A stretch of DNA of 45,831 bases, from positions 1-45,831 of the forward strand of contig JACPBO010000036.1 of assembly GCA_016180285.1 (NCBI GenBank). The letters are read 5' to 3'. Positions 9,838 through 39,330 of this stretch are shown piece after piece. This DNA comes from Candidatus Woesearchaeota archaeon. Its GTDB lineage: Archaea > Nanobdellota > Nanobdellia > Woesearchaeales > JACPBO01. The notes beneath the pieces were generated by a model. It made no database searches. It was not told where the DNA came from and saw only the letters and a list, made by a program, of their open reading frames with translations. The position numbers were made by a program, and so were the translations under genes. Each line of letters starts with the position of its first letter. Position 1 is the first letter of the stretch.

Positions 9838-11058
9838 ATGAAAAAGATTATAAATAGCCTAAAACTGCCAATTAAAATGCTGGCAAAACGCGCACTAAAC
9901 ATTGCGCCATCTGCAACTTTGGCAATAGACGCAAAGGCAAAGCAGCTCAAAAAGAATGGCGAGGACATAGTTGTTTTCGGAGCTGGGCAGCCGGATTTTC
10001 CCACTCCCGACAATATAAAACATGCTGCAATAAAGGCAATAAATGATAATTTTACAGGCTACACTCCTTCCGGCGGGATAATTGAATTAAAGCAGGCAGT
10101 TGCTGCAAAATTGAAAAGGGACAATAATTTAACTTATGATCCTTCTGAAATACTGATAAGCTGCGGCGGAAAGCACACATTATATAATATTATGCAAGTT
10201 CTATTAAACAAGGGCGATAAAGTAATTCTTCCGACTCCTTATTGGGTGAGCTATGAAGAGCAGATTAAACTGGCAGAGGCAAAGCCTGTTTTTGTGAAAA
10301 CAGATAAAAGATTTAAGATAACAGCTGACAGAATATCCAAAAAGATAAATAAAAAAACAAAATTAATCATTTTAACCTCCCCAAGCAACCCGACAGGAGC
10401 AGTAATTGACGAGGAAGAATTAGTTAAGATTGCAGATTTAGCTGTAAAAAATAACATTTATGTGATCTCAGATGAGGTTTATGAATTTTTTATTTATGAC
10501 TGGAAAAAGCAGTTTTCAATAGCATCCTTGAATGATCAAATAAAAGCTCTTACAATAACTGTCAATGCTGTTTCAAAAACTTATTCAATGACAGGCTGGC
10601 GGATAGGCTATTGCGCAGGGCCAAAAGAAATAATAAATGCAATGGACAGTCTACAGAGCCATACAACATCAAACCCGACATCAGTTGCGCAGAAAGCAGC
10701 GTTAGAAGCTTTGAATGGGCCGCAGGATTCAGTTAAAATTATGGTTGAAGAATTCGATAAAAGAAGAAAGTACATGACTGAAAGATTGAACCAGATAAAA
10801 GGGATCAGCTGCAACCTTCCTGAAGGCGCTTTTTATTGCTTCCCGGACATAAGCAAAACAAAGTTAAGCTCGCTGGACTTTTCAAACAGATTGCTGGATG
10901 AAGCAAAGGTTGCTGTTGTGCCAGGAATTGCATTTGGATCAGACAGGCACGTAAGGCTGAGCTATGCAACTTCAATGGATGATATAAAGAAAGGAATGGA
11001 CAGGATAGGAGAATTCATTGACAAGATCTGTCAAGAACCACCAATCAGAAATGGGTGA
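9838..11058 (+). CDS. aspC: Aspartate/aromatic-type aminotransferase (class I/II, PLP)
   Basis: PLP enzyme moving amino groups between amino acids and 2-oxoacids. Seen: GAGQPDFPTP near the N-terminus, the cofactor-binding region SCGGKHTLYN, TSPSNPTGAV (substrate-binding NPTG), DEVYEFFIY (Asp for pyridine nitrogen), and the PLP-lysine in VSKTYSMTGWRIGY. About 406 residues as usual. The last eight or so residues (CQEPPIRNG) are encoded by the left arm of a long stem-loop, so the tail may have been altered by whatever brought that structure. Transcribed in the same direction as the downstream synthase gene. Confidence 0.92.
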   Translation: MKKIINSLKLPIKMLAKRALNIAPSATLAIDAKAKQLKKNGEDIVVFGAGQPDFPTPDNIKHAAIKAINDNFTGYTPSGGIIELKQAVAAKLKRDNNLTYDPSEILISCGGKHTLYNIMQVLLNKGDKVILPTPYWVSYEEQIKLAEAKPVFVKTDKRFKITADRISKKINKKTKLIILTSPSNPTGAVIDEEELVKIADLAVKNNIYVISDEVYEFFIYDWKKQFSIASLNDQIKALTITVNAVSKTYSMTGWRIGYCAGPKEIINAMDSLQSHTTSNPTSVAQKAALEALNGPQDSVKIMVEEFDKRRKYMTERLNQIKGISCNLPEGAFYCFPDISKTKLSSLDFSNRLLDEAKVAVVPGIAFGSDRHVRLSYATSMDDIKKGMDRIGEFIDKICQEPPIRNG

Positions 11059-11094
11059 AATGTTGCTACGATCATTGCATCAGGTGGTTCTTGA
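11031..11094. repeat. Stem-loop A: 12-bp perfect inverted repeat over the aspC stop
   Basis: TCAAGAACCACC (11031-11042) is exactly complementary to GGTGGTTCTTGA (11083-11094) with a 40-base loop. The left arm is inside the aspC coding sequence and the stop codon is in the loop. It is followed after 6 bases by a second stem-loop of the same stem length. Confidence 0.8.
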
Positions 11095-11100
11095 GCATGC

Positions 11101-11167
11101 TCGGAATTTTCCTGAAGCCAATGCACAAACGCACACCACCAGTCATAAACTGGATGGAAAATTCCGA
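11101..11167. repeat. Stem-loop B: 12-bp perfect inverted repeat before the NifV-like gene
   Basis: TCGGAATTTTCC (11101-11112) is exactly complementary to GGAAAATTCCGA (11156-11167) with a 43-base loop. The right arm ends 17 bases before the ATG of the synthase gene, so the structure would be in its leader. The loop shows weak resemblance to the reverse complement of loop A (CATTG...TCA and a GGTG stretch), suggesting two facing copies of one element. Confidence 0.75.
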
Positions 11168-12479: not shown

Positions 12480-12713
12480 TTATTCCTTTCCTGTTACCTC
12501 TCTCATAGCCTGCTCAATTTTCGCGCTCATGTTATAGCCTTTTTCCCTGCAAAATTTCTTGAATCTTGAAGCTATTGACTTATCCACTGTAAAATTGAGC
12601 CTTGTTTTTGTTCTTATTCTCTTTGTTTTTTCAAATTCCTGCAGAGTTTCAAATAATGCGGAGTCTTTCTTTGCGATTTCATCCGCAATTTTCAAAAATT
12701 TATTTGATCGCAT
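12480..12713 (-). CDS. Ribbon-helix-helix antitoxin (partner of Doc-like toxin)
   Basis: 77 residues. The C-terminal half (TRLNFTVDKSIASRFKKFCREKGYNMSAKIEQAMREV) has the strand-helix-helix pattern of RHH repressors. It overlaps the 3' end of the Doc-like gene by 14 bases, so the two are co-translated with toxin first. Inferred to neutralise the toxin and to bind the promoter palindrome; not proven by sequence alone. Confidence 0.72.
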   Translation of the reverse strand: MRSNKFLKIADEIAKKDSALFETLQEFEKTKRIRTKTRLNFTVDKSIASRFKKFCREKGYNMSAKIEQAMREVTGKE

Positions 12714-13041
12714 CTTTTATCATCTCCTCGATTTTTACAATGCCCGATATATTTTTTAAGAGCATTTCTTTGATTAGCTTTGCAATTTTATCATCATAAG
12801 TTTCATAGCCTTCATACTCTGCATAGCTTTTTATCAGCAACGCAGTTGTCCTTTTGTTTCCTTCCTCAAAGACATGGTCAATCAGTATTGCCCTCGCCAG
12901 CCAAGCCAATGCCTTTGTCCAATTCTCATTTTTTCTGGAATAACTCAATGCAAAATCCAAACTGGCTTCATTATGAAAAGCGCCATCTGCAAATTTCTGG
13001 TTCAATGCAACAATATCTTTTTTAGTCAGTATAAACTTCAT
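12700..13041 (-). CDS. Doc/Fic-family toxin
   Basis: 113 residues, close to Doc (about 126). Seen: the active-site motif HVFEEGNKRTTALL at about residues 56-69, the Doc form (GNKRT) that lacks the second Arg of AMP-transferring Fic proteins; Doc proteins are known to phosphorylate EF-Tu. The preceding helices (FALSYSRKNENWTKALAWLARAIL) fit the fold. In an operon with an RHH protein; upstream lies a palindrome overlapping the TATA box. Confidence 0.85.
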   Translation of the reverse strand: MKFILTKKDIVALNQKFADGAFHNEASLDFALSYSRKNENWTKALAWLARAILIDHVFEEGNKRTTALLIKSYAEYEGYETYDDKIAKLIKEMLLKNISGIVKIEEMIKDAIK

Positions 13042-13068: not shown

Positions 13069-13099
13069 GTGTATTGATATTTAAAGCTTTTGGTTTTTT

Positions 13100-13168
13100 C
13101 CTTTGTCAGCAACAAGAATGATCGGATAGTGCTTCAGCAGATCGCTGACAAGCGTCATTGATGAATTT
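13100..13168 (-). repeat. 69-bp duplicate of the CBS gene fragment (copy B)
   Basis: Identical at all 69 positions to 14186-14254, which lies inside the HTH-CBS gene. In coding sense it gives NSSMTLVSDLLKHYPIILV then ADKGK and runs into a different ending (NQKL, stop) instead of the native EGLITKADLLKKV. It sits just past the 3' end of the 269-residue gene, so that gene is bracketed by the two copies. Confidence 0.95.
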
Positions 13169-13194
13169 CCTTGAATTACAATTAACATTACATT

Positions 13195-14004
13195 CTAGAA
13201 AGCATTAACAGAATAATTTGCAATTCCAAAATATTGTTTAAATCCAATTGCAACTTCGCTTGTCATTGTTTCGTCAAGTTCAAAATGAGACCATATAATG
13301 GGAATCTTTTTCTCATAATCTGAGAAAATGTTAAATAAGCTCTGAATGAATTTCTGTTTTGCGTCTTCGGGGTTTTTCACATCATCTCTTCCAACACAGT
13401 GCTGAAATAGATTGGTCATATTAGCAAATGATATATCTAATTTCCTTTTTTCTAAGATCCTGCCAACCGCATGCGTATACTCTAAATTCATTAAATCACC
13501 TTCACATAGAACAATGGTGCTTTTTTTTAATTTATCTTGAACTACACTAAATCTCTCTTCACCAGCCATATAATGATATCTGCCTAAGCTTTCTATTTCT
13601 TTATTAAAATGTATTTCTGTATTATTAACACTTTCTAAAAAATTATCCTTGATGACTCTTCGAGTATAATCTTTTAAGTTTGGTTCGCATCTTATCGCTT
13701 CTATATTATAAGCCATCCACTCAAGAATAAATTTATTCTTATCAAAAACAAACCATGTTTCAAAAGGCATCTCAGGGCAGATAGACATTAATCCTCCTGT
13801 ACCTACAACCATTCCCGCCTTATTTTCATAATTAGCTTCATTAGAAAATAATTTCTTCACTTCATCTAATACACCCGCCATATTGTCATCATTACTAAAA
13901 ACAAAAGATGTATTTCTTTCACTAGAGCTCTCTTTAATCTCAATCCTATTAAATTCTTCTTGTAAATCCCTTTCTAGTGTAGATGAAGTAATTCCCCCAA
14001 TCAT
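13195..14004 (-). CDS. Hypothetical protein bracketed by CBS-gene repeats
   Basis: 269 residues. Contains GMVVGTGGLMSICPEMPFETWFVFDKNKFILEW, LGRYHYMAGEERFSVVQDKLKK and SFANMTNLFQHCVG; the spacing of a GTGG loop and a later IVLCEGDL strand is reminiscent of Rossmann/methyltransferase-like proteins, but I cannot name a family and make no functional claim. Has its own TATA-like CTTTATAAAAC about 30 bases before the start. Lies between two perfect 69-bp repeats and has no counterpart elsewhere in the window; probably an accessory insertion. Confidence 0.65.
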   Translation of the reverse strand: MIGGITSSTLERDLQEEFNRIEIKESSSERNTSFVFSNDDNMAGVLDEVKKLFSNEANYENKAGMVVGTGGLMSICPEMPFETWFVFDKNKFILEWMAYNIEAIRCEPNLKDYTRRVIKDNFLESVNNTEIHFNKEIESLGRYHYMAGEERFSVVQDKLKKSTIVLCEGDLMNLEYTHAVGRILEKRKLDISFANMTNLFQHCVGRDDVKNPEDAKQKFIQSLFNIFSDYEKKIPIIWSHFELDETMTSEVAIGFKQYFGIANYSVNAF

Positions 14005-14136
14005 CTGAAATGAGAATATTATCTGTTTTATAAAGATTACCTTTTCAATAACTGACTAGTGATGATCATCATTTCTCGTCAGTCCTACTTTCTTTGACTT
14101 TTTCATTGCTTTGCAGCAAAATATACTAACAACCCT

Positions 14137-14656
14137 CTAAACTTTCTTCAGCAAATCCGCCTTTGTTATTAATCCTTCTAATTTCCCTTTGTCAGCAACA
14201 AGAATGATCGGATAGTGCTTCAGCAGATCGCTGACAAGCGTCATTGATGAATTTTTGGATATTATCGGCGGAGTCTCTTCCATTCGATGCGATGTCCTTG
14301 CCTATGTTGTTTATTATTGTCGCTTCAGATATGATGCCAACAACATTGCTTCTTTCAACTACAGGAACCTGCGATATAGCATGCTTCCTCATCAGTTTTA
14401 TTGCGCTGTCAACCTTGTCATTCGGCTTTAGGGAAATTATCTTTTTGATCATGAGCTGCTCTGCCTTTGGCTCTTTTTCCTCTTTAAAAGAAGCCAGAAC
14501 TTCAAAAAGCTTCTTTGTTTTTGTGTAAGACGGCTCTATTAATCTTGCTTCAAGCTTTGCAATAAAGCTCTGCGAAACATTAGCTAATTTAGCAAGGTCT
14601 GACTGCGTTATCCCGAGCTTCCTTCTTAATATTTTGATTTCTTCTAATTCAGGCAT
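14137..14656 (-). pseudogene. HTH-CBS regulatory protein, frameshifted in the second CBS repeat
   Basis: Residues 1-60 form an XRE-type helix-turn-helix (LRRKLGITQSDLAKLANVSQSFIAKLEARLIEPS); a CBS domain follows (LKPNDKVDSAIKLMRKHAISQVPVVERSNVVGIISEATI). The frame then runs into an unrelated tail ending at 14192, while the proper second CBS repeat (MEETPPIISKNSS ... YPIILVADKGKLEGLITKADLLKKV, stop at 14137) continues in another frame. The shift lies near 14283-14300 and corresponds to a one-base change. Such proteins are known archaeal regulators sensing adenosyl ligands. Decay or a sequencing error are both possible. Confidence 0.8.
14186..14254 (-). repeat. 69-bp direct repeat inside the HTH-CBS gene (copy A)
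   Basis: Perfect partner of 13100-13168 in the same orientation, 1086 bases apart. This copy is in its native context: flanking bases continue the second CBS repeat of the host gene on both sides. Confidence 0.95.
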
Positions 14657-14790
14657 TTTTTAATGGGTAAGAAATAAGAGATATATAAATTTATTCTTAT
14701 GGAAATGCTAAATAAATTTTTACTTTTAAATAGTTACAATAGAAAGATTTATAAACTGCTTTTCATTATGTCCTTTAAGGGTAAATTAAA

Positions 14791-15555
14791 ATGAGATTAT
14801 TGGGTATACTGGGGCTAAGAGAAAGTACAGCTAAAAACAAGCCTGAAGAGGAAAAATACAGCCGTGCAATGGAAGTAGCTGAATTAATAATTGACTCATA
14901 TCCAGAAATAGACAGGACCAAAAGGGATGTTTGGGACCATGGGAAAGATGATCGCAAAATAGTTAATAAAGACGGAAGCGTAACTTATTTGGGTTGGAAT
15001 GATGATGCAGTAGTTTGTATCAGCAAAAATAGCAGTAGTTGGTACGGTATTGATTGCCACATTATGGCAAGAGATAAAAAAGAAAGAAATAATTGGGACA
15101 GATATAGCATTTCAGCAACCATTGATTATAGGGGTGTTAACCAGAACTTTATAGAAGAAGAATTAAGAAAAAGCGGTGTTTCAGACAAAAGGAATCTTGG
15201 CCATATAGACATTGATGTTTATAAACTTGGTCAGAATGAGTTCGGAATGTATGATGTAGAAGGACGGGCTTTAATGGATTTGCTTCATGTGACGCTGGCA
15301 CGTGAAATTGCCCCAAAGTACGGCATTAAAATGAAGATTGGCGGCGGTTGTTGCGGCAATAAAGAACGTGTAGAATTTAGCGTGCATAATCTGCAGGAAA
15401 ATAACATAAATAACCTTGTTGAAGCAGTTAAAAGGTACAATTTCCTTATTTCTCTGCCGGAATTTAAAAATATTAAAGAGGCAAATCTGCAAAGAATTGA
15501 GTCTGAATTGCGGGATTTAGCAATAATCAGTAAAAATCATCATTCTGCCCATTAA
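14791..15555 (+). CDS. Hypothetical protein
   Basis: 254 residues, soluble, mixed charge. Notable points are a tryptophan-rich first third (VWDHGKDDRK, YLGWNDDAVV, NSSSWYGIDC), a glycine/cysteine patch KIGGGCCGNKERVEF near residue 185, and a helical C-terminus. No family recognised. It has its own TATA box (AAGATTTATAAAC near 14745) and is followed by an intrinsic-type hairpin and T run, so it is a single-gene unit between the divergent HTH-CBS gene and metK. Confidence 0.65.
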   Translation: MRLLGILGLRESTAKNKPEEEKYSRAMEVAELIIDSYPEIDRTKRDVWDHGKDDRKIVNKDGSVTYLGWNDDAVVCISKNSSSWYGIDCHIMARDKKERNNWDRYSISATIDYRGVNQNFIEEELRKSGVSDKRNLGHIDIDVYKLGQNEFGMYDVEGRALMDLLHVTLAREIAPKYGIKMKIGGGCCGNKERVEFSVHNLQENNINNLVEAVKRYNFLISLPEFKNIKEANLQRIESELRDLAIISKNHHSAH

Positions 15556-15566
15556 GAAATGTTCTC

Positions 15567-15593
15567 AAAATATTCCTATTGGAATATTTTTTT
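15567..15593 (+). terminator. Stem-loop with T tract after the 254-residue gene
   Basis: AAAATATTCC (15567-15576) pairs with GGAATATTTT (15581-15590) around TATT, and the stem runs straight into further T residues. It begins 11 bases past the stop codon. The layout is that of an intrinsic terminator; in archaea the T tract alone is usually the main signal. Confidence 0.65.
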
Positions 15594-15713: not shown

Positions 15714-16928
15714 ATGGCAAAAACATATTTTGTAACAAGCGAAAGCGTGACAGAGGGCCACCCAGATAAAATCGCAGATCAAATAAGCGACGCAATAGTC
15801 GACAACCTGTTTGCGCAGGACCCGATGTCAAGAGTGGCAGTTGAAACAATGACAACTACAGGATTGGTGATGTGCGCTGGCGAAGTCACAACAAGGGGAT
15901 ATGCGGATGTGCAGAAGATTGTAAGAAGCACATTGAAGGATATTGGATACACAGACCCTCAGTTTGGAATTGATTTTGAAGATGCAGGCGTATTGGTTTC
16001 AATCCATGGGCAGAGCGCGAATATTTCTCAGGGTGTAACAGAGGCAGCAGGCCATGAGCAGGGAGCAGGCGATCAGGGAATGATGTATGGATTTGCATGC
16101 AATGAAACACCTGAACTGATGCCTCTGCCGATAATTCTGGCTCATAAGCTTACAAGAAGAATGGCTGAAGCAAGGAAAAAGGGCGAGATAAAGCACATAG
16201 GGCCAGACGGTAAATCGCAGGTAAGTGTTGAATATGAAGATGGAAAGCCAAAAAGAATAGACGCAATTGTTATTGCGCAGCAGCATAAAAAAGACATTTC
16301 AGAGGATGATCTGAAGAGGGAAATCCTCGAAAAAGTAGTAAAGCCTGTATGCAGCTATATGATGGACGCCAAAACAAAAATCCATATCAATGCAACAGGC
16401 GCATTCGTGATTGGAGGCCCTGAAGGCGATACAGGAGTTACAGGAAGAAAGATCATTGTTGATTCTTACGGCGGAGTTGGAAGGCATGGAGGAGGCTGCT
16501 TCTCCGGTAAAGATCCAACAAAAGTTGACAGAAGCGGAGCTTATGTCTGCAGGTATGTTGCAAAGAACATTGTTGCAGCAGGCTTAGCTGACAAGTGCGA
16601 AGTAGCTGTAAGCTATGCAATAGGAGTTGCAGAGCCCACTTCTGTGAATGTTGACTGCTTTAGCACAAACAAGATTCCTGAAGAAAAAATAAATGAGTTT
16701 GTAAGGAAGCATTTTAACTTAAAGCCTAGAGGCATAATTGACAGCTTAAAGCTGAGAAACCCGATCTACAGGGAAACAGCGAATTACGGCCATTTCGGAA
16801 GAGAACCTGCTGTGAAGGATGTGAAGATTGACATCAATGGAAGAACAACTGTGTTTGAGAACATTGAGTTCTTCACATGGGAGAAAACTGACAAGGCTGA
16901 GATATTGAAGAAAGAGGCTGGACTGTAG
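15714..16928 (+). CDS. metK: S-adenosylmethionine synthetase, bacterial type
   Basis: Makes SAM from methionine and ATP. Seen: N-terminal [22 protein letters not shown] (ATP/Mg site), [16 protein letters not shown], the loop [33 protein letters not shown] and [19 protein letters not shown]. These are motifs of the bacterial/eukaryotic MetK; most archaea carry a separate, very different SAM synthetase, so this gene looks acquired. [10 protein letters not shown] has Cys where Ala is usual. 404 residues, full length. Downstream, a diverged copy of its last 45 bases is found at 18356-18400. Confidence 0.95.
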
Positions 16929-16946
16929 ATTTATTTTAAGAGTGCA

Positions 16947-18355: not shown

Positions 18356-18400
18356 GAGAAGACTAACAAGGCAGAGATATTGAATAAAGAGGCCTGCTGT
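18356..18400 (+). repeat. Relic of the metK 3' end
   Basis: Aligns with 16881-16925 of metK in the same orientation; the first 38 bases differ at only a handful of positions and the frame reads EKTNKAEILNKEA against [13 protein letters not shown] in metK, after which the copy loses the stop. The nucleotidyltransferase/winged-helix cassette lies between the true metK end and this relic. Confidence 0.8.
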
Positions 18401-18509
18401 AAGTTTGGATTTCTTATTTTTTATAAAAGCTTAGGTAAAATACCCGCAACCTTAGCTATGAGATGAATGCCGTGCCTCTTTCCAGTATTTCTACAAGAGG
18501 AGAAGCATT

Positions 18510-19028
18510 TCATGATTTTTTGGCCAGTCTGTTAATCTCCTTTGTTGAAATCTCATTAGGGAAAATATCCTCAATTTCAACAGCTAATTTCTTTCTTAGC
18601 GTATATGTGTTTGCATGTTTTGCATAAGCAAACCAGCCTTCAAAGAAGTCATAAATGCCATCATAATCTATTTTTTTGTCTTTGTAGGCTTGCTTTAGTA
18701 TTTCAAAATTCGCCATCATCTTTCTTAAATTAGATTTTTTCAATAACTTGTGATAATAAAAAATCCTAAAACCGAGGAATGTCAATCTATTTCTTAAAAG
18801 TATTATCTTTGATTTATCGGGATGAAGTTTAATATTCAGTCTTTGCTTTAGAAATTTGTTGATTCTGTCTTTATAGTTCAGTAAATCATCTTTGTTTGAC
18901 TGCAATATAACAAAATCATCAACATAGCGAATGTAATATTCTGCTTTTAGCTCAGATTTAACAAACCAGTCTAACTGGTTAAGATAAACATTTGCAAAAA
19001 ACTGAGATGTTAAATTTCCAAGAGGCAT
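18510..19028 (-). CDS. DGR reverse transcriptase, C-terminal half (after frameshift)
   Basis: Carries the catalytic part of the enzyme: MPLGNLTSQFFANVYLN at the start, where LGNLTSQ is the DGR form of RT motif 4 (QGxxxSP in other RTs), YIRYVDDFVIL with the catalytic YVDD at residues 35-38 of this half, LHPDKSKI, LGFRIFYYH and a C-terminal thumb-like helical section. The ATG here is internal to the family and probably not a natural start; the normal polypeptide continues from the upstream half, but a run of 12 G at 19044-19055 puts the two in different frames. Confidence 0.88.
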   Translation of the reverse strand: MPLGNLTSQFFANVYLNQLDWFVKSELKAEYYIRYVDDFVILQSNKDDLLNYKDRINKFLKQRLNIKLHPDKSKIILLRNRLTFLGFRIFYYHKLLKKSNLRKMMANFEILKQAYKDKKIDYDGIYDFFEGWFAYAKHANTYTLRKKLAVEIEDIFPNEISTKEINRLAKKS

Positions 19029-19597
19029 TCCTTTTTCCGTTCGCCCCCCCCCCCCGCAATGCAGTTGTTAAGTATTTTTTGTATTAGCCAAATGACTCTT
19101 TCATCCTTTATCTTCTTTTGGATTATATTTAATAGAATATTATGATCAACTGTTTCAAAGTATTTCTTTATATCTGCCTTAAGCACATAACAGTTTCTTG
19201 TGTTATTCTTGCTTGCCTTTCTTTTGAAATAATCAAACCTTTGCAATGCTTTTAGTGCTCCTTTATTGGTTCTGTTGGCATAAGAATCTTGAATAAAGCT
19301 TTTGTCAAATATGGGCTCTATTATATTGCATAAAGCATGATGCATCACCCTATCCCTAAAATCTGATTTTGAGATTTTTCTTGTTTTTGGGTCTCTAACT
19401 ATGAAGTTTACTAAAGGCTTGGGTTGGTAGCAATGCAGTAATAATTCAGTTTGTAATTGATTGAGGTTTTCCTTTAAGTTTTTTTCAAAATCAATTACAT
19501 AGTCTTTTGTTGTTTTGTGTTTTCTTGCCGTTTTATAAGCACATTCTAAATTTTCATAAGAACAAACATGTTTATACAGGTTGCCATATCGTTTCAT
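19010..19597 (-). CDS. DGR reverse transcriptase, N-terminal half (frameshifted at a G12 run)
   Basis: Begins MKRYGNLYKHVCSYENLECAY, the usual opening of this RT group, and carries the fingers motifs: FIVRDPKTRKISKSDFRDRVMHHALC, SYANRTNKGALKAL and VLKADIKKYFETVDH, which contains the first catalytic Asp. The reading frame then enters a poly-G tract and ends in an out-of-frame tail (ERKKECLLEI). One extra G, or two fewer, would join it to the downstream half. I chose ATG 19597; the ORF is also open back through the template repeat to an ATG at 19624 and beyond. Confidence 0.88.
   Translation of the reverse strand: MKRYGNLYKHVCSYENLECAYKTARKHKTTKDYVIDFEKNLKENLNQLQTELLLHCYQPKPLVNFIVRDPKTRKISKSDFRDRVMHHALCNIIEPIFDKSFIQDSYANRTNKGALKALQRFDYFKRKASKNNTRNCYVLKADIKKYFETVDHNILLNIIQKKIKDERVIWLIQKILNNCIAGGGGERKKECLLEI
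19044..19055. repeat. 12-base C/G homopolymer inside the RT gene
   Basis: Twelve C on the plus strand (G in coding sense) between RT motifs 3 and 4, at a place where the family has a short variable loop. By far the longest G/C run in this AT-rich window. It causes the frameshift between the two RT halves. Confidence 0.95.
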
Positions 19598-19621
19598 AGT
19601 AATTGTCTTGGTTGCCAAGGC

Positions 19622-19710
19622 CATTCCACGGGAATGCCCATTGTTGTTGTCAAAGTGGTTGTTGCCATTGACATGGAACCTATCGCCATTGTCGTCGAAC
19701 CTGACAGCCC
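19622..19710 (-). repeat. DGR template repeat (TR)
   Basis: 89 bases aligning without gaps to the variable repeat at 19914-20002. Seventeen positions differ, and in coding sense all 17 are A in this copy (10 A to G, 7 A to T); the other 8 A and all 64 non-A positions agree. In the target frame it reads through Asn- and His-rich codons (DDNGDRFHVNGNNHFDNNNGHS), the AAC/AAT pattern of TRs. Lies between target gene and RT; would be transcribed as the template RNA. Confidence 0.96.
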
Positions 19711-19877
19711 CAACATTATAGCCAATTTATCCCTTAAGTTCACTGCTGCTTCATCTCTTCGTTTCCTACCAAGTGTTGCAGCTGTATTTCATAACTTTTA
19801 AGCCATGATAAATTGGCGTGTGGCCTTGGCTTTTTTGACCAAGACAAATAAAGAAGAATAAAGCCAGTATAAAAAAT

Positions 19878-20636
19878 TTATTTTTTTGCGCGTCCGCTTC
19901 GCGGACTTATCAACACCCCACGGGAACGCCCAAAGCTGCCGTCAAAGCGGTAGTTGCCATCGACAAGGAACCAACCGCCAAAGTCGTCGAACCCGACAGC
20001 CCTTTCAGGATTTGAGTTTCTTGAACTTTGATCTGGTGTCCAATCTCTAATATCGCCTGCTCTTCTCTTTGAGAGATGTTCAAGAACTTCAGTGATTGTT
20101 TTTGGATTGTCAGTTGTATTCAATACAGATTGAAAATAGGTAACTCCATCTTCTTCATTTAGTATTCGAGGTAATGGTGTATCTTGATAAACAGGAATCA
20201 CAGAAATGTTTATTTTGGTAGGCTGTACTACAGTACTGCCAAAATTATGCACAATTTTTGCACCCAAATCATTTGGATTATATCGAATTCTTGTGCTTGA
20301 AACTTCCCAGCTTTCATCAAAGTCTTTTCTTAAACTGCCAAGCACTTCATCAGAAGCTGTTTTTCCAGCTTGGTAAATATCAGAAGCAGAAATCATTCTT
20401 TTTCCTTTAAATTCTCCTTCTTGGGCATTATATAGCGCAATCCAATCTTTTTGAGTTTTATATGCTCCATTAACAGCAGACTGCAAATCTATAGTTATAT
20501 TTTGAGGTTGGATTAATTCGTGTGCATAATTTTTGATTAAATGTTTTAATACAGCCTCTGGGCTTTTAAAATTACTAGAATCAACTATTCTATTAAGAGT
20601 TCTCGTATCTTTATTGCTGATTTGATAGGGTTTCAT
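19878..20636 (-). CDS. DGR target protein with C-terminal variable region
   Basis: 252 residues. The N-terminal 45 residues are helical (KDTRTLNRIVDSS ... AVLKHLIKNYAHEL); the middle contains WIALYNAQEG and TKINISVIPVYQDTPLPR; the C-terminus (residues 212-241, AVGFDDFGGWFLVDGNYRF and on) is encoded by the variable repeat and resembles the lectin-like/FGE-type folds that display DGR diversity, with the conserved SFG.SRGV ending. No signal peptide or membrane segment is seen, so the product is probably cytoplasmic. 13 of the 29 codons compared differ from the template. TATA (TTTATATATTAG) lies about 25 bases ahead of the ATG. Confidence 0.9.
   Translation of the reverse strand: MKPYQISNKDTRTLNRIVDSSNFKSPEAVLKHLIKNYAHELIQPQNITIDLQSAVNGAYKTQKDWIALYNAQEGEFKGKRMISASDIYQAGKTASDEVLGSLRKDFDESWEVSSTRIRYNPNDLGAKIVHNFGSTVVQPTKINISVIPVYQDTPLPRILNEEDGVTYFQSVLNTTDNPKTITEVLEHLSKRRAGDIRDWTPDQSSRNSNPERAVGFDDFGGWFLVDGNYRFDGSFGRSRGVLISPRSGRAKK
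19892..19906 (-). repeat. Hairpin just downstream of the variable repeat
   Basis: GTCCGC and GCGGAC form a perfect 6-bp stem with a 3-base loop (GAA in coding sense), 7 bases past the end of the variable repeat and inside the last codons of the target gene. DGRs such as that of Bordetella phage carry a hairpin at this place that helps select the retrohoming target. Confidence 0.75.
19914..20002 (-). repeat. DGR variable repeat (VR)
   Basis: Recipient copy of the template repeat, at the 3' end of the target gene. Boundaries are sharp: the bases flanking the 89-base alignment at either side do not match the template. Substituted codons change Asn, His, Asp, Arg and Met of the template reading into Phe, Tyr, Trp, Leu, Arg, Gly, Ser, Asp and Val. 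Confidence 0.96.
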
Positions 20637-20740
20637 TCTAGAAATGGAAAAGTAACACTAATATATAAACCTTTTGGTTTTTGTAACTTTAAAGTAGTTC
20701 TATGAAAGGGAAAGGTTTAAGTTGTCATTTTTTAATCTAA

Positions 20741-23700
20741 TTAATTATATTCATCCCATCCCTTGATCTTCAGCTCCTCAACCTTTGTCCTCGACATCGC
20801 TTCCACAAGCCTTTTTGCGATCTGCAAATTGGTGATCAAAGGAACATCAAAATCAACTGCCTTCCTTCTTATTAAATAATCATTGTCAAGCTCTTCTTTT
20901 TCTATGCTTTTCGGTATATTGATAACAAGGTCTATTTTTCCATCAGCTATGTAACTGAGCGTATTCGGCTCTTTCTTTTCCAAAGGCCAATGCAGGACTT
21001 CTGCATTCAATCCATTGGACTTCATAAACTCAGCTGTTCCCTCTGTTGCATAAAAATTAAAGCCCATTTTTGCAAGAATCTTTTTGCTTTCCAGCAATTC
21101 TGATTTCGCATGTATCGGCCCGGTTGACAATAAAATGTTTTTCTTCGGAAGTTTAAATCCAACTGAGATGAGGCTTTTTAAAAACGCCTCATTAAAATCA
21201 TCGCCAAGGCAGGCAACTTCACCGGTAGATGCCATCTCTACACCCAGCACAGGATCAGACCCCTTTAACCTTGTGAATGAGAACATTGGCGCTTTAACCC
21301 CGACATAATCAAGGTCAAATGCTGACCTGTCTATTTTAGGCACATTCTTGCCCATCATCAGCTTTGTAGCGATATCAATAAAATTTATCTTGAAAACTTT
21401 TGAAACAAACGGAAAGCTTCTTGAAGCCCTTAAATTGCATTCTATAACCTTTACATCATTGTCTTTTGCTATGAACTGTATGTTGAATGGCCCTGTTATT
21501 TTCAGCGATTCTGCAATCTTCCTTGTTATTATCTTAATCCTCCTCATTGTTTCAAGGTAAGTCCTTTGCGGAGGAAGAACAATGGTTGCATCGCCAGAAT
21601 GAACCCCTGCATTTTCAACATGCTCTGAAATTGCATAGCAGAATAATTCGCCGTTATTAGCAACAGCATCTATCTCTATTTCCTTTGCATCTGTTATGAA
21701 CTTGCTTATCACAACAGGATGCTCCTTGTTCACAGCTGATGCTTTCTTCAGGTATTCTTCAAGCTCATTCTCGTTTAAGACAACGCTCATTGCAGCTCCG
21801 CTTAAAACATAGCTCGGCCTTACAAGAACAGGATAACTGGCTTTTCTGGCAAATGCCTTTGCATCAGTTAAAGAAGTAAGTTCATTCCATTCCGGCTGGT
21901 CTATTGAAAGCGCATCAAGCAATTTTGAGAATTTATGCCTGTCTTCAGAATTGTCTATGCTAATCGGAGATGTTCCTAATATTTTAACGCCAACATTGTG
22001 GCACTTCAAAGCAAGGTTATTCGGAATCTGGCCGCCCATTGATATTATTACGCCAAGCGGAGCTTCTTTTTCGTAGATATCAAGCACTCTTTCAAAGCTA
22101 AGCTCGTCAAAATACAGCTTATCGCAGATATCATAATCTGTGCTTACAGTTTCAGGGTTATAATTGATCATGATTGTATTGTACTTTAAATTTCTCAATG
22201 TCAGAACAGCATTAACGCAGCACCAGTCAAATTCAACAGAAGATCCTATCCTGTAAGCTCCGCTGCCTAAAACGATAACCTGGTTTTCCTCATTGAAATC
22301 AATATCATCTTCATTGGAATTATAAGTCAAATATAAATAATTAGTTTTAGCAGGATATTCTGCTGCCAAAGTATCTATCTGCTTTACATAAGGAATTATT
22401 CCGTGCTTTTTTCTTAATTTTCTTGCAGACAATTCATCTGATTTTGTCAATATTGCAATCTGCTTGTCAGAAAACCCTTTTTGCTTTGCTTCTTTTAATA
22501 AAGATGCATCTAGATTTTCAAGCTTGCACTTGATTAATTCTTTTTCTATTTCAACTATATTTTTAATTTTGTATAAAAACCACTTGTCGATTTTGGAGAG
22601 GTCATGTATCTTATCTATTGAATAATCTTTTTTAATTGCTTCTGCTGTTGCAAAAACTCTCTGGTCAGTCGGGTTCTTAAGCTCTTTATCCAGATTGTTC
22701 AGCTCTATCTCATTCGCAACTAGGCCTTCCATTCCAATGCCCAGCATCCTGATTGCTTTCTGCAGCGTTTCCTCAAAGTTCCTGCCAATTGCCATGATCT
22801 CGCCAACTGATTTCATTTCAGTGCCTATTTCTTTCTTGACCATTTTGAATTTTTGGAGATCCCATCTCGGTATTTTGACAACAATATAATCGAGCGCAGG
22901 CTCAAAGCATGCCATTGTTTTTTTGGTTATCATGTTCTGCAGTTCTGTAAGGGAATAGCCTAATGCTAATTTGGCTGCGATAAAAGCCAATGGATAGCCT
23001 GTTGCTTTTGAAGCAAGCGCAGAGCTTCTTGAAAGCCTCGCATTGACCTCAATTATTCTGTATTCTTCGGAATTAGAGTCTAGAGCATACTGTATGTTGC
23101 ATTCCCCAACTATGCCAAGGTGCCTTATGACTTTTATTGACACATCTCTTAATAAATGATATTCTGAATTTGTCAATGTCTGCGATGGAGCGACAACAAT
23201 GCTTTCTCCTGTATGGATCCCCATGGGATCAAAATTCTCCATGTTGCAGACTGTAATGCAGTTATCATATTGGTCTCTCACAACTTCATACTCGACTTCT
23301 TTCCACCCTTCAAGGTATTCTTCCACTAGAATTTGCTTTGTAAAGGAAAATGCCTTTTTTGCCCTTTCTGCCAGCTCTTCTTCGCTGTAAGAAACTCCTG
23401 ATCCCAAGCCGCCCAAAGCATATGCAATTCTTATCATTACAGGATAGCCGATTTTCTTTGCTGCGCTTAATGCTTCATCTACGTTGCTGGCAGCCGCGCT
23501 TCTCGGCACTTTAAGCCCTGCTTCCAATATTTTCCCAACAAACAATTCCCTGTCTTCTGTATTCTTTATTGCATCTACCGGTGTTCCTAAAACTTTCACT
23601 CCATATTTCTTCAGAATGCCTTTGTCATAGAGCTCAACTCCGACATTTAATGCAGTTTGGCCTCCAAAGCCGAGCAGGATTCCATCTGGCTGTTCTTTTT

Positions 23701-31582: not shown

Positions 31583-34500
31583 TTATAAGCTGCATATTGA
31601 ATAACCGCACTGCGGGCATGTTGAGCATCCTTCCTGGATCTTCATCTTGCTGCCGCATTCAGGGCATTTCTCTAAAAACTTGCCTTTCTTCTTTCCGTCC
31701 TCTTCTTTTTTTGTTATCTCTATGTTCAGCACTTGATTTTCCCTGCTTCCATCTCTGTAAACTGTAACGCCCTTGCAGCCAAGCTTGTAAGCAGTAAGGT
31801 AGACTGTTTTGACATCCTCTGTTGTCGCCCAATTCGGGAAATTAACAGTCTTGCTCACAGCATTGTCTGTATGTTCCTGAAAAGCGGCCTGCATATTTAC
31901 ATGCCACTCCGGCCTTATGTCGTGGCTTACAACAAAGATTCTTCTTCCTTCATCAGGAATCTCCTTGATGTTTTGTATTGATCCTTTGTTGGCAATGCTT
32001 TTCATCAGCTCCTCGCTGTAAAATCCCTCTTTCTTTGCGTAATTCTCAAAATGCTCATTCACATAAACAAGTTCCTTGTTGTCCATTACCCTTTTAATGA
32101 ATGATACAGCAAACAATGGCTCCACTCCGGAGCTGCAGTCAGCAATCATGCTTAATGTCCCGGTTGGAGCAATCGTTGTGACAGTTGCATTCCTCATTGT
32201 TTTGAATTTGGATGCCCAGATGCTGTCCTTGAAATTCTGGAAAGACCCTCTTTTTCTGCCCAACTCTTCAGACATTTTTCTTGCTTCATCGCATACAAAC
32301 TTCATGATGCTTCTTCCTGTTTCAACGCCGTCTTTTGAATTATACGCAAAGTTCAGCTGGAAAAGCATATCGGCAAACCCCATAACGCCCAACCCAATTT
32401 TCCTGTTTGACTTGGTCATCTCCTCTATTTGCTTCAATGGAAACTTATTCATATCAATTACATTGTCCAAAAAATGAACGGCTTTTCTTACAGTTTCACT
32501 GAGTCTCTCATAGTTTATTTTTCCGTTTTCAACAAATTTGCCTAGATTTATGCTGCCGAGGTTGCACGATTCGTAAGGCAAAAGGGGCTGCTCGCCGCAT
32601 TGGTGAACTATGATTGAATTACAGACCATAGAATGTGTAACGGGTTCTGTCAAATCGTAAACTTCGTTTAAGCCAGCGCTCTCGACCATTACAACAGTAT
32701 CTGTGAATTGTTTTTCCCGCCTCTTTTTGAAGCGAATATTTTCTAGATGCTGATTTTTACGTTTGCCAATAAAACCTATTTTCTTCTTAAAACTGTCCAT
32801 ATTCGCGCCAAAGATGCCTAGTTCGTATAATACGCCATCAGAATTGTATGTTCTTCTTTCCCCGTTTTTTGTGATGTACTCAAACAGGCCTTCTCTTGGC
32901 GGCCTTGAGCGATCATAGATTACGCTTTTTATGCCGAAATTCAAAAGAAGCACCTGCACTTCCTTAAGCAGCATTATGCTCTTAGATGTTAATGCCATCC
33001 AGTCACTTGCACTTTTTTTGCTGTCTCTGACTGTGCCGTCTGCGGTAAACAATCCTTGCAGAAATCCGGCAGCAGCTTCTTTCGGCGCAGAGAATACGCT
33101 CTCAGGAACGCTTTTCTCATCCGGGCGAACAACCTTAACTCCGAGCTTCCTAAAGTAATCCACAAAATACTTCGAGTGGTAAGATAAATGAATCACATTG
33201 TTTTTCCTTTTTATTTCCTTTATTTCATTGCCATAAAAATTATTTATCACTGGACTTATGTAATTGAGAATTTCTATATCATCATTGCCAAATGTGAATC
33301 CGATTCTGCAATTTTTGTCCCCTTCGCGGATCCAACCATCCGCAATCAACAAACCAAGTATTTGGCCAAGTTCTTTTGACCATTTTGAAGGCAGGTTAAG
33401 CTTATATGCCCTTCCATTGCTTCCTTTGAATTCATTCTTCACATCAAATTGAATATCATATTTGCTGCTGAATCTGCCTTCTCCGGACTGCAATAAAACT
33501 TTTTTTCCTAAACAATCTTTTAGCTCAAACCAGCCGTCTGTTGTGAGGATTTTGTGGTCTGCTGTAGCAACAAGCTCATAACCGCATTTTGTTGCCAATC
33601 TGCAGCATTCTTTAACTCCTGTTTTCCAAACAGCAGATATCGGATTAAAACTGACCCCTTTCTCCTTCATTTGGAGTAAGCTTAGTGTTCCATCTTTATT
33701 CAGAACAGAAATGGGCACTCTGTTATCAACAGCTATTTTAATTACCTTATGTTTTTCAACTAAGTCTTTCATTCTCATCAACCCGAACTCAGTAGAAACC
33801 AGACAATCGCCTGTAACGCATGGATTAGTGCTTTCGATCTCACCGATTTTCGGCGTCGGATTAGCTCTGTTCATCTCATCAATAAATATTACTCCTGGCT
33901 CTCCGTTCTTCCACGCCATCAGAACAATCAAATCAAAAACATTTCTTGCAGGAAGAGTTTTGGCAACAGACTTATCGTGCGGGCTTATCAGCTCATATTC
34001 TTCGTCTTTTTCAACAGCTTTCATGAACTTGTCGGTCAAGGCAACAGATATGTTGAAGTTGTTCAATGCATTCAGTTTTTCTTTTGATGTTATGAAATCA
34101 ATTATGTCGGGATGGTCAACCCGCAAAATAGCCATGTTAGCGCCGCGCCTTTTGTTATGCACCAAAATGCTGTTCGCAACAAAATAGCCGGTAGCCGGAA
34201 CCATTATGTCCATTGTGTGCTCTTTTTCAGTATTGATCTCAGAAACCTGGCTGTAGAAATATTCGTCATTTGCTGCTTTCAGCAGCTGCTCATTTCTTAA
34301 TTCTGAAAATGTATTGAGCAGCTCTTTAAGCCTCTTTCTTGTGAGATTCCTTGCAGAACTGGTTTTTATGCCGGACAAATGGTGCTGTATTGCCCTGTAT
34401 AATTCCCTATTCGCGCCTTTCTTGCTTCTGTTCTTGCCGCATCCTCTCCCCGGGCCATCATAAAGGCTTCTCAATAAATCAACTTGATTCGGTATAACAT

Positions 34501-37500
34501 CGTTTTGCTCAAATTCCCTGATCTTATATCTCTCTTTTAGCTTATTATTTTTTCTCTCAGAAATGAAGCCGATATTTTTAATGAATTCGCTTATGCTCCT
34601 TTCCTGGATTATATTTAAGTGATGAATTGGATTCTTTCCGTATCTGTTGCTGCTTGTATATCTGTGAAATGTCGAGACAATCCCCAAGCCAAATAACAAT
34701 TGCTGCACATCTTTAACCAGCCTTTGTGATGCTGAATAGAGCCTAGGATAGCCGTCTGAATGCACATCTCCATCGCCTTCAAACAGGCCTTTTAAGAATG
34801 CAAATGCGCTTTCTTTCGAGGACTGGAATATATGAAGCGGAACAAACGCATTCAGAGCCCCGTCTTTTTTCCATCCTGATTTTTCAAAATAACTGCAGAT
34901 GTTTTTTGAATAGAATATCAGGCATATGGAATTTTCGCCTTCCTTTTGTTCTGTTCTGTGCTCTGAAACGCCAAAATTTTTCAGCATTAATTCGCAAATC
35001 CTTTCTTTTAGCAAAATATCAGAGGATTCTACTGCAAAAATAATTCTTCCGCCGCTGCTTATGCAGCCATCAGCCATGTAAATTCCAAGCAATTCTGCTA
35101 AATCAGGGCTCATTTTTTTTGGCAGCTCTGCATGCTTGGTATTAAAATGCTGTTTGAGCTCTATAGCTGGCAGTTCTGTATCTTCAGCAATATGGCCGCC
35201 AAGAACATGGATAACCCAATCTCCTTTTTTAACATCTTCAGCCTTCTTCCACGAGAATTTTCCTTCCTCGCCAACAATGCCTATACTGTGGTTGTAAGTT
35301 GCTTTAATTTCGGTGCCTATCTTTGTCTTTATGCTATACACTTCAGCAACATTATTATCTTCTGCCAAAAATGCCTGCTCAAAGCCGCCATTTGTATAAA
35401 CAAGATGGCTTGTCGGGCAATCTCCTAATGAAGGGCAGTTCAAAAGCTTTCCAATTGGCATGACTCCTTTGTTTGTCCTTATTAGGCTGCCTGTAGCTAT
35501 GCATCCGCCCTGCTTGATAACCTCTGTTGTAACGTCAAATACGCGCATAAAAGACAATGGCCCGGAAGCAACTCCTTTAGTTGACATCACAAGGTCATTC
35601 CTCGGCCTTAGTCTTGAAAAAGAGAATCCTGTATTGTGAACAACTGCAAAGCTGTTCTCCCCAGCCAAATAATTGTTGTTTTCAGACATAGTAAAATCAT
35701 AGAAATCCCCTGCACAAGCGGCTTTCTCAACAGCTACAACGCGGTGCAGAGTGGGCAGAACAGACAGCCACATCTTTAATGTCTCTTTTTCTGAGGATGT
35801 TAATTTTTCTGAAAAAGTTAAGATTATTTTGAGCAGCTCTAACACCTTATTTAAAGAAACGCCCTGATTCTCTTTCCACCTCGCCAGCCAAAAATATGTG
35901 TCTTTAATCTTTATTGATTCTTTGTGAATTTTGCTATTTTTAGTGGCTACATCTATTCGGTTAAGATAAGGCTCAATATCTGCAAAAGAAAGAGGGCATG
36001 TCCGGCTTGTATTCTTTGAAGACGCTTCAGCAAATTTCTGCAGCCTTTCTCTTCTAAAGTTATTTGCAAGATGATGCTTGACCAAATCCCAGAGGCGGCT
36101 CAATTGCTCCTGCGTATCTATGTTTAGTTCATGCATCATATGCCATTTATTTTTGCGCGGCTTTCTTTCCCTGACTGATGTCCTGAAGCCGAGCAAAGAC
36201 AACAAACAGCTTAGCTCTTCAATAAATTGCTTGCTTGCTGAAGCATAATTAACCCTGATCTTTTCCTTGCTTACATACCCGTCAGAATCAATCAGCCCTG
36301 CCAGGAAAGAGCTTATAACAGGCAAAGGAGACTTTAAGACCGAAGAAGGAATACGAATATCCTTTTTTTCTCCGAGAACATTGCATACCGACCTTATAAA
36401 CGCTATTATTCTGCGGTCATAGCAAACAATATAATGGGTTTTGTTTCGCCTGTCTTTCTGAATCTTGTATTTCTTATTGGTGACAGCCGCCAATATATTG
36501 ACTGCCTTATTTAAGCTCTCGACTGACTCATCAAAAAATCTTAACCGCAGCCTGTCTAGATAAGGCCCCAATGAGCCGTCACCCAGGAAATAGCCCAATA
36601 ACCAGCCCATTTCTTCATTAATTTTAATCCCGTTGACTTCCTGATATTGCTCAAACGGCCAATTTTCCAAAATGCTGCTGTTTGAAAATATCGCCCAATC
36701 TCCGGGCTTTATCTCATCTGCACGCCTTTCCAGAATTTTGCCATTCTCAAAAACAAAAAAAGGATGCCAATCGCTTGTAGTTGCCTTTGAGTTTCCCTCA
36801 AAACAAATGCTAAAAACCCGCTCTTTAGGCAGAGTGTAATGCCAGATCTTATCTATTTTATCTTTAGAAAACTTTCCTGTTCTCTTATCAAAAGAAAAGG
36901 TAAAGATATTTTTGCCAGCCAGCTTTATGAATGATTCGCTGTTTTGGCCTTTTTCCTCAGGCACTTCTTTTTTAAGCTTATTATATAGGATTTCGATCTT
37001 CTCCAAGCCGCAATATGTGGTAAACACATTTGAATCCTTATAGACGCATCCTCCTCCGCTTTTGTGTATCACAGCCGTATTCTTCACAGTTTCAAATATC
37101 TCCTCAATAGAATCTCCTACAGGAAGAACGAAGCACGCTGACAATTGCTGCAGCTTTGTTCCTGCATTCATCAATGTCGGAGAATTAGGAAGAAACTCAA
37201 GATTTGACATCATTTGGTAGAATTCTTCCTCTGTTTTGCCTGAAACAGCATCTTTATCATAGAGCTTGTCTGCCTGCGCAACGTTCTTTGCAACCCTTCT
37301 GAACAATTCATCCGGAGTTTCTATTAAAGCACCGTTTTTATCCTTCAATAAATACCTCTCCTTAAGAACCTGCAATGCATTGACAGAAAGCTTTGTCTCA
37401 AAAGTTTTGCCAATGATCATCTCCTTAACTTCTCTCAGTTCCTTATGCTTCTGCCTGTACAGGATGAATGCCTTTGCAGTCTGCGCATGGCCCTGCTCAA

Positions 37501-37756
37501 TAAGAACTTTCTCTACAATGTCCTGCACTTCCTCAACATGAGGTATCTTTTTTCCGTCATACTGCTCATCAAGAACATTGACAACCTTATCTGCAAGCTT
37601 TTCAGCTGTTGCGCGGTCCTCTCCGCCAACAGACTGCGCTGCCTTGAATACTGCATTTATGATCTTTATCTTGTCAAAGTCAACTGTACTGCCGTCTCTT
37701 TTTATTATCTTTGTTACTTTCTTAGAATTTGTCTTCCCATCATCCTCTTGCTTCAT
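31583..37756 (-). CDS. nrdJ: Ribonucleoside reductase, adenosylcobalamin-dependent (class II), with three inteins
   Basis: Precursor of 2057 residues, 728 after removal of three inteins. Extein motifs in order: an ATP-cone-like N-terminus ([35 protein letters not shown]), [93 protein letters not shown] with the thiyl-radical Cys region, [20 protein letters not shown] and a C-terminal cysteine-rich tail CPECGSKM...CPQCGYSIC for re-reduction. Class II is inferred from these motifs and the neighbouring cobalamin adenosyltransferase. ATG 37756 is preferred over TTG 37774 because GAGGGGG precedes it. Confidence 0.94.
32600..33820 (-). other. Intein 3 in nrdJ (407 residues, C-terminal Gln)
   Basis: Inserted at STNP/CGEQ, directly before the catalytic-site Cys. 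Begins [13 protein letters not shown] (splicing block A), has [10 protein letters not shown] (block B, TxxH), a LAGLIDADG endonuclease with ILGLLIADG and LQGLFTADG, and ends [11 protein letters not shown] with +1 Cys. A terminal Gln in place of Asn is a known functional variant in a few RNR inteins. Confidence 0.93.
34154..35503 (-). other. Intein 2 in nrdJ (450 residues, followed by Lys)
   Basis: Inserted at IKQGG/KRRGAN. Begins [17 protein letters not shown], block [22 protein letters not shown] motifs LLGIYMADG and LKGLFEGDG, and ends [12 protein letters not shown]. The following extein residue is Lys (AAA), not Cys, Ser or Thr, which the standard mechanism needs. Confidence 0.92.
35633..37048 (-). 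other. Intein 1 in nrdJ (472 residues)
   Basis: Inserted at KSGGG/TGFSF. Begins [14 protein letters not shown], block [23 protein letters not shown] motifs LGYFLGDGS and [11 protein letters not shown], ends NSFAVVHN with +1 Thr. All splicing residues for a Cys1/Asn/Thr+1 intein are in place. Confidence 0.93.
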
Positions 37757-37906: not shown

Positions 37907-37945
37907 TTATTCCCCTTCAAACTCCGCCAACTTTAAAATCACATA
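37907..37945 (-). repeat. Relic resembling the apt 3' end
   Basis: Matches the last 39 bases of apt (38800-38838) at 30 positions, in the same orientation and ending in the same stop codon; in frame it reads YVILKLAEFEGE-stop against YKVFNLVEFEGE-stop. The Bro-N gene lies between the two. The 205-base gap between nrdJ and the Bro-N gene otherwise holds only AT-rich promoter-like sequence. Confidence 0.65.
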
Positions 37946-37961
37946 CTAGTTTTTTAATAAT

Positions 37962-38798
37962 CTATCCTTTCTTTTCAATTCTTTTGTCTTTTTCCGTTGC
38001 AGAAAGGTAGTTCTCACCTGAAATAATTGATCTGCCTATCCTACGTTCAGCATCTTTCCTTGCGTTGCCGGCGACCTCTCCGCCTTCTTTTGCAGAATCT
38101 TTGCATTCTGGAAAATCCTTATCATCTTTATTTCTGGTGATCTCGGTGGTAACTCTCTCGCCAAGCATTGTAAAGATAAGCTCGAGGTCATTCATGTGGT
38201 CGCGCAGATTTTCTCTTTTCAGCCCTTTGAGTTTTTGATATTCGCTTGGCGTCATTCCAAAGGTTGCTTTTGAGATTTCTGCTGTTAAAATAGCAAACTC
38301 CCTATCCGTTTCTACCCCTCTTTTGTTCCATTCATCTGTTAATTCATCCCTTATTGCAATTCCCCTTACTCTTTTCTCAATCCAGTCTTCAGAATAGCCC
38401 TTTGCCCTGTAGATTTCCTTCATGCGTTTTTGAGCTAGTTCAGGATTTTGGATTTCTTCAACTCTATCATAACCTACCTGAGCCAACCATTGCTTAAATG
38501 GTTCTGCTTTAGGAGATGGAATAGATTGGATGATTCTGAACATATTTTTTGTATTGGCGCAGTCTGTTTCCCTTAATCTGCCATCATCTGCCATTAACTT
38601 CAACTGTCCGATTTTTTCGGACACTTCAAAACCTTCATCGGTAAGCTTAACCTTTAAATCAGACCAGTACTTTCTAGCTCTATCGGTTTGGGTTAATGCA
38701 CCTATTATATCAACTACTGAAAACCACCATTCATTATTATGCCAGATTCTCCTTATCTGCTTTCCTTGAAACACAACTAATGCATTATTTTCTTCCAC
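37962..38798 (-). CDS. Bro-N domain protein (phage antirepressor / DinD-like)
   Basis: About 278 residues. N-terminal Bro-N domain: VFQGKQIRRIWHNNEWWFSVVDIIGALTQT, typical of phage antirepressors and the DinD proteins, followed by NTKNMFRIIQSIPSPKAEPFKQWLAQVGYDRVEEIQNPELA and a helical C-terminal DinD-like part (EFAILTAEISKATFGMTPSEYQKLKGL). Mobile-element cargo by family. Start GTG 38798 follows AAGGTGA formed by the apt stop region; longer starts at 38807 or 38813 overlap apt. Role here unknown. Confidence 0.82.
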   Translation of the reverse strand: MEENNALVVFQGKQIRRIWHNNEWWFSVVDIIGALTQTDRARKYWSDLKVKLTDEGFEVSEKIGQLKLMADDGRLRETDCANTKNMFRIIQSIPSPKAEPFKQWLAQVGYDRVEEIQNPELAQKRMKEIYRAKGYSEDWIEKRVRGIAIRDELTDEWNKRGVETDREFAILTAEISKATFGMTPSEYQKLKGLKRENLRDHMNDLELIFTMLGERVTTEITRNKDDKDFPECKDSAKEGGEVAGNARKDAERRIGRSIISGENYLSATEKDKRIEKKG

Positions 38799-38799
38799 T

Positions 38800-39330
38800 T
38801 TATTCACCTTCAAACTCCACCAGATTAAAAACCTTGTAATTGTTTTCCAGTAACTTGTTCTTTCCTTTCAATTCCGGAAGATCAACAATGAAGGCGCACT
38901 CTACAATATTGCCGCCGAGCTTTTCAATAAGTTGGCAGGCAGCCAACGCTGTACCCCCGGTAGCAATCAAATCGTCAACAAGCAGCACATTATCTCCCTT
39001 TTTTATTGCATCCTTGTTCATTTCAATTGTGTCAGTGCTGTATTCTGTGTCATAAGTTAATGTTTCAACCTCTGGCGGCAATTTTCCTTTCTTCCTTATC
39101 GGAACAAATCCAACGCCAAGCTGATGCGCAATTGCTCCGCCAAAAATAAATCCTCTGCTTTCGATTCCGGCAACAAAATCTATTTTGGCATCTTTGTATC
39201 GCTCAACAAATTCCTTGATCACATCTTTCAGGCCCTGAGCATCTTTCAGCAATGTTGTAATATCCCTGAACATAACGCCCTGCTTGGGCCAATGCGGTAT
39301 TGTCCGGATTTTTGATTTAATATGCTCCAT
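38800..39330 (-). CDS. apt: Adenine phosphoribosyltransferase
   Basis: Adenine + PRPP to AMP. Seen: FRDITTLLKDAQ, the IESRGFIFGGAIAHQLGVGFVPIRKKGKLP flexible-loop region and the PRPP-binding motif VLLVDDLIATGGTALAA (about residues 118-134). 176 residues, typical. In one direction behind mtnP, which releases adenine from methylthioadenosine, so the two form a salvage route. Confidence 0.94.
   Translation of the reverse strand: MEHIKSKIRTIPHWPKQGVMFRDITTLLKDAQGLKDVIKEFVERYKDAKIDFVAGIESRGFIFGGAIAHQLGVGFVPIRKKGKLPPEVETLTYDTEYSTDTIEMNKDAIKKGDNVLLVDDLIATGGTALAACQLIEKLGGNIVECAFIVDLPELKGKNKLLENNYKVFNLVEFEGE

Follow-up and report, generated by a model that had tools for sequence, protein, structure and literature searches.

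A duplicated segment of a CBS-domain gene as a candidate scar of recent, integrase-free gene gain in a woesearchaeal genome

Stacking of genes by homology-facilitated illegitimate recombination has been proposed for the T6SS effector-immunity arrays of Vibrio cholerae, which include the shifted-back 3' end of the old effector gene (PMC5361080), and recombination of this kind has been described in naturally competent bacteria and in Escherichia coli conjugation (PMC3240628). Another type of insertion footprint comes from restriction-modification (R-M) systems, for which long and variable target duplications have been recorded (PMC3874152, PMC1643837); for Helicobacter, the insertion of R-M genes with long target duplication is credited in these two papers to Nobusato et al. 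(2000). Integrative elements with an attachment site at a gene 3' end are a further point of comparison.

The locus described here, from a Candidatus Woesearchaeota archaeon, resembles each of these in part. As in the Vibrio arrays, genes would have been added by homology within a conserved gene on one side and by an illegitimate join on the other, and a displaced old 3' end, together with the old neighbors, would remain downstream in direct orientation. Unlike those arrays, the host is a DPANN archaeon known here from sequence alone, the targets are ordinary genes (a CBS regulator, metK, apt, pheT, a radical-SAM gene, and surface genes) instead of effector genes with swappable ends, and the cargo is toxin-antitoxin (TA)-like, BRO-N, or orphan genes, or an adjoining diversity-generating retroelement (DGR). 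With the Helicobacter R-M genes it shares accessory, often selfish units flanked by long variable direct target repeats with no linked integrase or transposase, but the cargo is not R-M, and the near copy at the CBS locus carries its native tail, so that it is not a clean target duplication. The gene 3'-end duplicate at the far side of the insert recalls the integrative elements, from which the units described here differ in the lack of an integrase, a repeat sequence specific to each locus, a varied repeat length, and a content of just one to a few genes. The insertion footprints are thus of known kinds and the host group is new; a search of the open-access literature found no paper combining “DPANN” and “illegitimate recombination.”

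The window, i.e., the whole stretch of 45,831 nucleotides that was analyzed, is a contig of genome G000, and the comparison within the genus rests on two genomes, this one and G001, the only other genome of the same genus. On its minus strand the window carries a gene with HTH_3 and CBS domains (Pfam), part of which is repeated beyond an accessory ORF. The features of this locus are as follows:

12480..12713, minus strand: 77-aa antitoxin-like partner, overlapping the Fic/Doc-like gene (weak DUF6364 match)
12700..13041, minus strand: Fic/Doc-like toxin gene just beyond copy B (Pfam Fic, E = 1.1e-4; PHROG Doc-like toxin, E = 3.1e-7)
13096..13168, minus strand: copy B, an internal piece of the CBS gene with 1 mismatch to copy A (repeat finder, alignment; absent in G001)
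13195..14004, minus strand: 269-aa accessory ORF (ORF list; one clear relative, 35% identity)
14137..14181, minus strand: native CBS tail directly after copy A, out of frame (alignment to G001 L011:8483-8527)
14182..14254, minus strand: copy A (73 bp), in its native place in the 3' part of the HTH-CBS gene (repeat finder, self-BLAST; single counterpart in G001)
14192..14656, minus strand: HTH-CBS gene, at present read as 154 aa with a frame-shifted end (ORF list, Pfam; G001 ortholog of 179 aa)
about 14284/14285, minus strand: junction of a 17-bp deletion relative to G001, with frameshift (alignment)

A first-pass annotation of this DNA had described a perfect 69-bp duplicate, with one copy inside the second CBS repeat and the other beyond the 269-residue gene, and on all three points it was correct. 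The 69-bp core (13100-13168 and 14186-14254) is identical at every base, and the full direct repeat (13096-13168 and 14182-14254; repeat finder and self-BLAST) reaches 73 bp with 1 mismatch and a spacing of 1086 bp. The self-BLAST E value of the pair is 8.6e-30, and a match by chance is excluded. Copy A matches the stretch of G001 that encodes the second CBS repeat. Copy B is non-coding; the 269-aa ORF stops (13195) on one side of it, the promoter of the Fic/Doc-like gene lies on the other, and foreign sequence adjoins it on either flank; it ends ca. 45 bp short of the end of the native CBS stop codon, after which other DNA follows. A search of the whole genome found no third copy. Two candidate explanations of the repeat were rejected, namely an RNA element, as Rfam gave no match at copy B, and a repeat family or miniature transposon, as the genome has just two copies of the repeat and a single one of the intergenic stretch 14005-14141. 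Elsewhere in the window, 11026-11106 is a member of a dispersed, stem-forming repeat of ca. 80 bp (CAAAAACCACC...GGTGGTTTTTG in G001), to which places in many G000 contigs and in G001 are similar.

At the orthologous place, G001 holds an intact 179-aa CBS gene with one copy of the repeat (L011:8528-8600) and no 269-aa gene, so that the duplication is recent and younger than the split between the two genomes. Of 73 sites, 1 differs between copies A and B and 12 differ between either of them and G001 (the 95% upper bound of the A-B divergence is ca. 0.4 of the A-G001 divergence), so that copy B arose in the lineage of G000. A recent event, as the first-pass annotation had proposed, agrees with both comparisons, and the same structure with equally diverged copies, the mark of an old static duplication, is not present in G001. 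Its other proposal, ongoing conversion, found no support: the second copy of apt, at a locus shared by the two genomes (see below), drifts freely in G000 (19/75 differences). Downstream of the CBS gene, G001 has a 344-aa gene and a GNAT gene instead, and the right flank of its single-copy site is unlike that of the window. From its 5' part through the tail, the CBS gene aligns to G001 save for the 17-bp deletion, which shifts the frame so that the 154-aa ORF ends at 14192, inside copy A; the DNA of the tail (14137-14181) is intact though out of frame. Copy A is native on both sides, while the alignment places no tail after copy B.

The only ORF of at least 70 aa between the copies is the 269-aa ORF. 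Its protein gave no significant match in Pfam, NCBIfam, PADLOC, PHROGs, or solved structures, in keeping with the earlier remark that no integrase lies between the copies, and no recombinase gene was found in or beside the unit (ORF list and the same four libraries). Relatives were sought in genome contigs, viral contigs, plasmids, 99 relatives, 371 genomes of the phylum, and 378 of the class. The clear relative is one 270-aa ORF of a Woesearchaeota genome (G132, JAGVZG010000002.1), with marginal partial matches in G303 and G189; the plasmid search gave no match. Structure prediction yielded no confident fold (pLDDT 33 and 34.5). By eye, one might guess at a likeness to class I methyltransferases from the pattern VGTGG ... 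D.N ... GDL ... FAN.TN, a likeness that no family library supported. The function of this protein has no bearing on the scar.

The layout had been read as a single-crossover (Campbell) insertion through the 69-bp homology, i.e., of a circle with 69 bp of the CBS gene and the 269-aa gene. A direct repeat bracketing one gene, in the order copy A, unit, copy B, has the topology of such an event, but the native CBS tail follows A, not B. Insertion of the circle into a locus like that of G001 would put the tail after B, so that the Campbell reading is unsupported as written; it would take a recipient gene that was already truncated and a circle that itself carried the tail. Moreover, collapsing the repeats, or removing the 1086-bp unit, cuts the CBS gene short at the Fic/Doc promoter and does not give an empty site like that of G001. 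Together with the lack of an integrase and of a plasmid match, and with the recurrence of the signature at other loci with a different gene end each time, this makes an insertion of that type very improbable.

Because the native tail follows copy A, one-sided recombination is favored at the CBS locus. With moderate confidence, we read copy B as a scar left by accessory DNA that the 3' end of the CBS gene gained recently and without an integrase, through stacking of two versions of the locus. One population would have held two versions, one with the CBS gene, its tail, and the 269-aa gene, and the other with the Fic/Doc pair attached to a 3' part of the CBS gene. The recombination would have been one-sided, through homology in the CBS gene at one end and through an illegitimate join at 13168|13169 at the other. 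Copy A, the tail, and the 269-aa gene would have come from the incoming version, and the recipient's former CBS 3' fragment (copy B) would have been displaced downstream with its former neighbors. The second version, the identity of the donor, the enzymes, and the route of DNA entry are parts that we infer. From the footprint of homology-facilitated illegitimate recombination, the locus has the upstream anchor gene, homologous to the insert-free G001, and the displaced 3' remnant of that gene downstream in direct orientation, which is copy B. This copy runs into the Fic/Doc promoter, a junction compared only with G001, which has other genes there and lacks the Fic/Doc-like gene at this locus. 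No sequence with a CBS fragment joined directly to Fic/Doc, as postulated for the second version, was found, and inspection by eye gave no clear microhomology at the illegitimate junction.

Alternatively, insertion of the 269-aa cassette, through a long staggered break or its equivalent, might have duplicated a long target, no less than 117 bp from the 3' end of the CBS gene, with the far copy trimmed later by deletion so that it lost its tail. Long, variable cases on the order of 100 bp are known for R-M systems (PMC3874152), and the direct duplicates at gene 3' ends in the genus vary from ca. 21 to 150 bp and often end close to the stop codon or right at it (pheT, apt, and L023). At the CBS locus, however, the repeats do not bracket exactly the insert, the tail being native on the near side, and an extra deletion beside copy B would be needed, which must have been quick since the copies are 99% identical. 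We consider this reading possible but doubtful.

Two further neighbor-end duplicates lie in the window, one of them at the edge of a DGR (18422-20741) that is absent in G001. The names metK, apt, pheT, and radical-SAM were read from translations, not all of them checked against family libraries.

16881..16918 (or 16881-16945), plus strand: metK 3' end, copy A (second neighbor-end duplicate in the window)
18356..18422, plus strand: diverged copy B of the metK 3'-end fragment, at the left edge of the DGR insert (alignment)
18510-19028 and 19010-19624: DGR RT (RVT_1), split at a poly-C run near 19047-19057
19626-19710: DGR TR
19713-19844: Rfam RT-16 RNA
19918-20002: DGR VR, at the 3' end of a 252-aa gene
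37907..37981, minus strand: copy B of the apt 3' end, on the far side of the BRO-N gene (75% like copy A in the window, against 92% in G001)
38800..38874, minus strand: apt 3' end including the stop codon, copy A (third neighbor-end duplicate in the window)

All 15 of the 15 TR/VR mismatches of the DGR fall on TR adenines, and the split of its RT is perhaps a sequencing frameshift. Between the CBS gene and metK, a 254-aa orphan ORF (14707-15570) is inserted relative to G001, and each of its junctions has a similar stretch of ca. 14 nt (TATTCYTATTGGAA-like), which may be a short target duplication. Further along, a ribonucleotide reductase large-subunit ORF of 2063 aa (31583-37774) holds three intein/LAGLIDADG inserts, and three stretches of 1.2-1.4 kb in it are missing from G001.

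The apt/BRO-N arrangement behind apt is common to the window and G001. Elsewhere in the genus, duplicates of a radical-SAM gene end surround a HEPN-MNT pair (L039) and those of an S-layer gene end surround AbiE (L023). At L045, the end of a surface (S-layer) gene, with its stop codon and terminator, is duplicated around two small ORFs; this duplicate, common to both genomes, measures 151 bp in G001 and 80 bp in G000, and such a shortened far copy is what a trimmed target duplication would look like. In G001, duplicates of the pheT 3' end surround a 200-aa ORF. In G000, pheT directly abuts a 144-aa gene, whereas in G001 a 3.3-kb insert lies between them; copy B sits 0.65 kb into this insert, so that at least two insertions may be nested, and the locus fits target duplication and one-sided recombination alike. 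The scars at pheT, L023, and apt end within a few bases of the stop codon, which long target duplication explains equally well. A HEPN-like and HTH/MNT-like pair also occurs in G000 at L052 (6826-7928).

Two other loci behave differently with respect to the cargo. At metK, and in G001 at C6:45 kb, where a 5074-aa surface gene has a duplicated end and AbiE lies beyond the far copy, the sister genome also has, at least in part, the genes that the copies bracket, and the DNA it lacks (the DGR and AbiE, respectively) lies just beyond copy B. The bracketed genes are therefore not the unshared insert, an arrangement that stacking fits and simple target duplication does not. The metK pair is possibly an older duplication, since lost in G001. 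In the same part of G001 (C6:45803-47576), the HEPN-like and HTH/MNT-like pair of L052 seems to have been deleted between GCAAAAAG repeats, with the start of the first gene fused to the end of its partner and an AbiE-like insertion adjoining.

Copy B could also be a local templated filler, 73 bp for which break repair at the insertion junction took the CBS gene, 1 kb distant, as template, and its nature as an internal CBS piece with unrelated flanks, nearly identical to the local copy A, is in line with this. However, copy B at metK resembles the metK of G001 at least as well as the local one, and at G001 C6:45 kb it likewise resembles the A of the sister genome at least as well as the local A, which also fits stacking. 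Fillers should, moreover, give both orientations. Short dispersed repeats with a spacing of 250-5000 bp, except for pairs within one gene, were sought in 694 kb of G000 (about half) and 458 kb of G001 (about a third), sampled by stretches. The non-paralogous candidate pairs were almost all direct (direct to inverted, 21:0 in G000 and 11:1 in G001), dispersed inverted repeats being almost absent from the sampled DNA of both genomes, although some of these 21 and 11 candidates are paralog remnants or promoter-like AT-rich matches and not insertion scars. A filler is thus an unlikely source of copy B. For reference, 5.8% of randomly drawn 50-bp segments overlap a gene stop codon. Six other families of the order, sampled over 1.12 Mb, yielded 11 candidates in direct and 3 in inverted orientation. 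Most of these have low identity, and a pair of 93.5% touching a gene end (G065) is again an AT-rich match of the promoter-like type; 3'-end pairs of recent origin are rare in these six families, in a comparison that is descriptive, with non-random sampling and clear cases picked by eye.

The genome is fragmented (51 contigs) and probably a metagenome assembly, in which strain variants may be joined as chimeras. Such an artifact is highly improbable here, as the two copies are told apart by one base and by their flanks, and the separate assembly of G001 has the same type of scar at other genes. Direct 3'-end duplicates do recur in the genus, and the scars at several loci suggest repeated, integrase-free gene pick-up. 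It is rather improbable that this reflects a dedicated mechanism of the genus that inserts TA-like or accessory genes at host 3' ends with direct duplication of 21-150 bp and no encoded integrase or transposase.

To our knowledge, how uncultivated, small-genome DPANN archaea gain genes is largely unknown. Taken alone, the CBS locus is a modest case, and it is of moderate interest because the scar recurs across the genus, which makes it worth following. If 3'-end scars are a reliable footprint, insertion events could be dated, ordered, and assigned to donors from their sequence, and the scars would point to an integrase-free, recombination-based gain of toxin-antitoxin and retroelement cargo.
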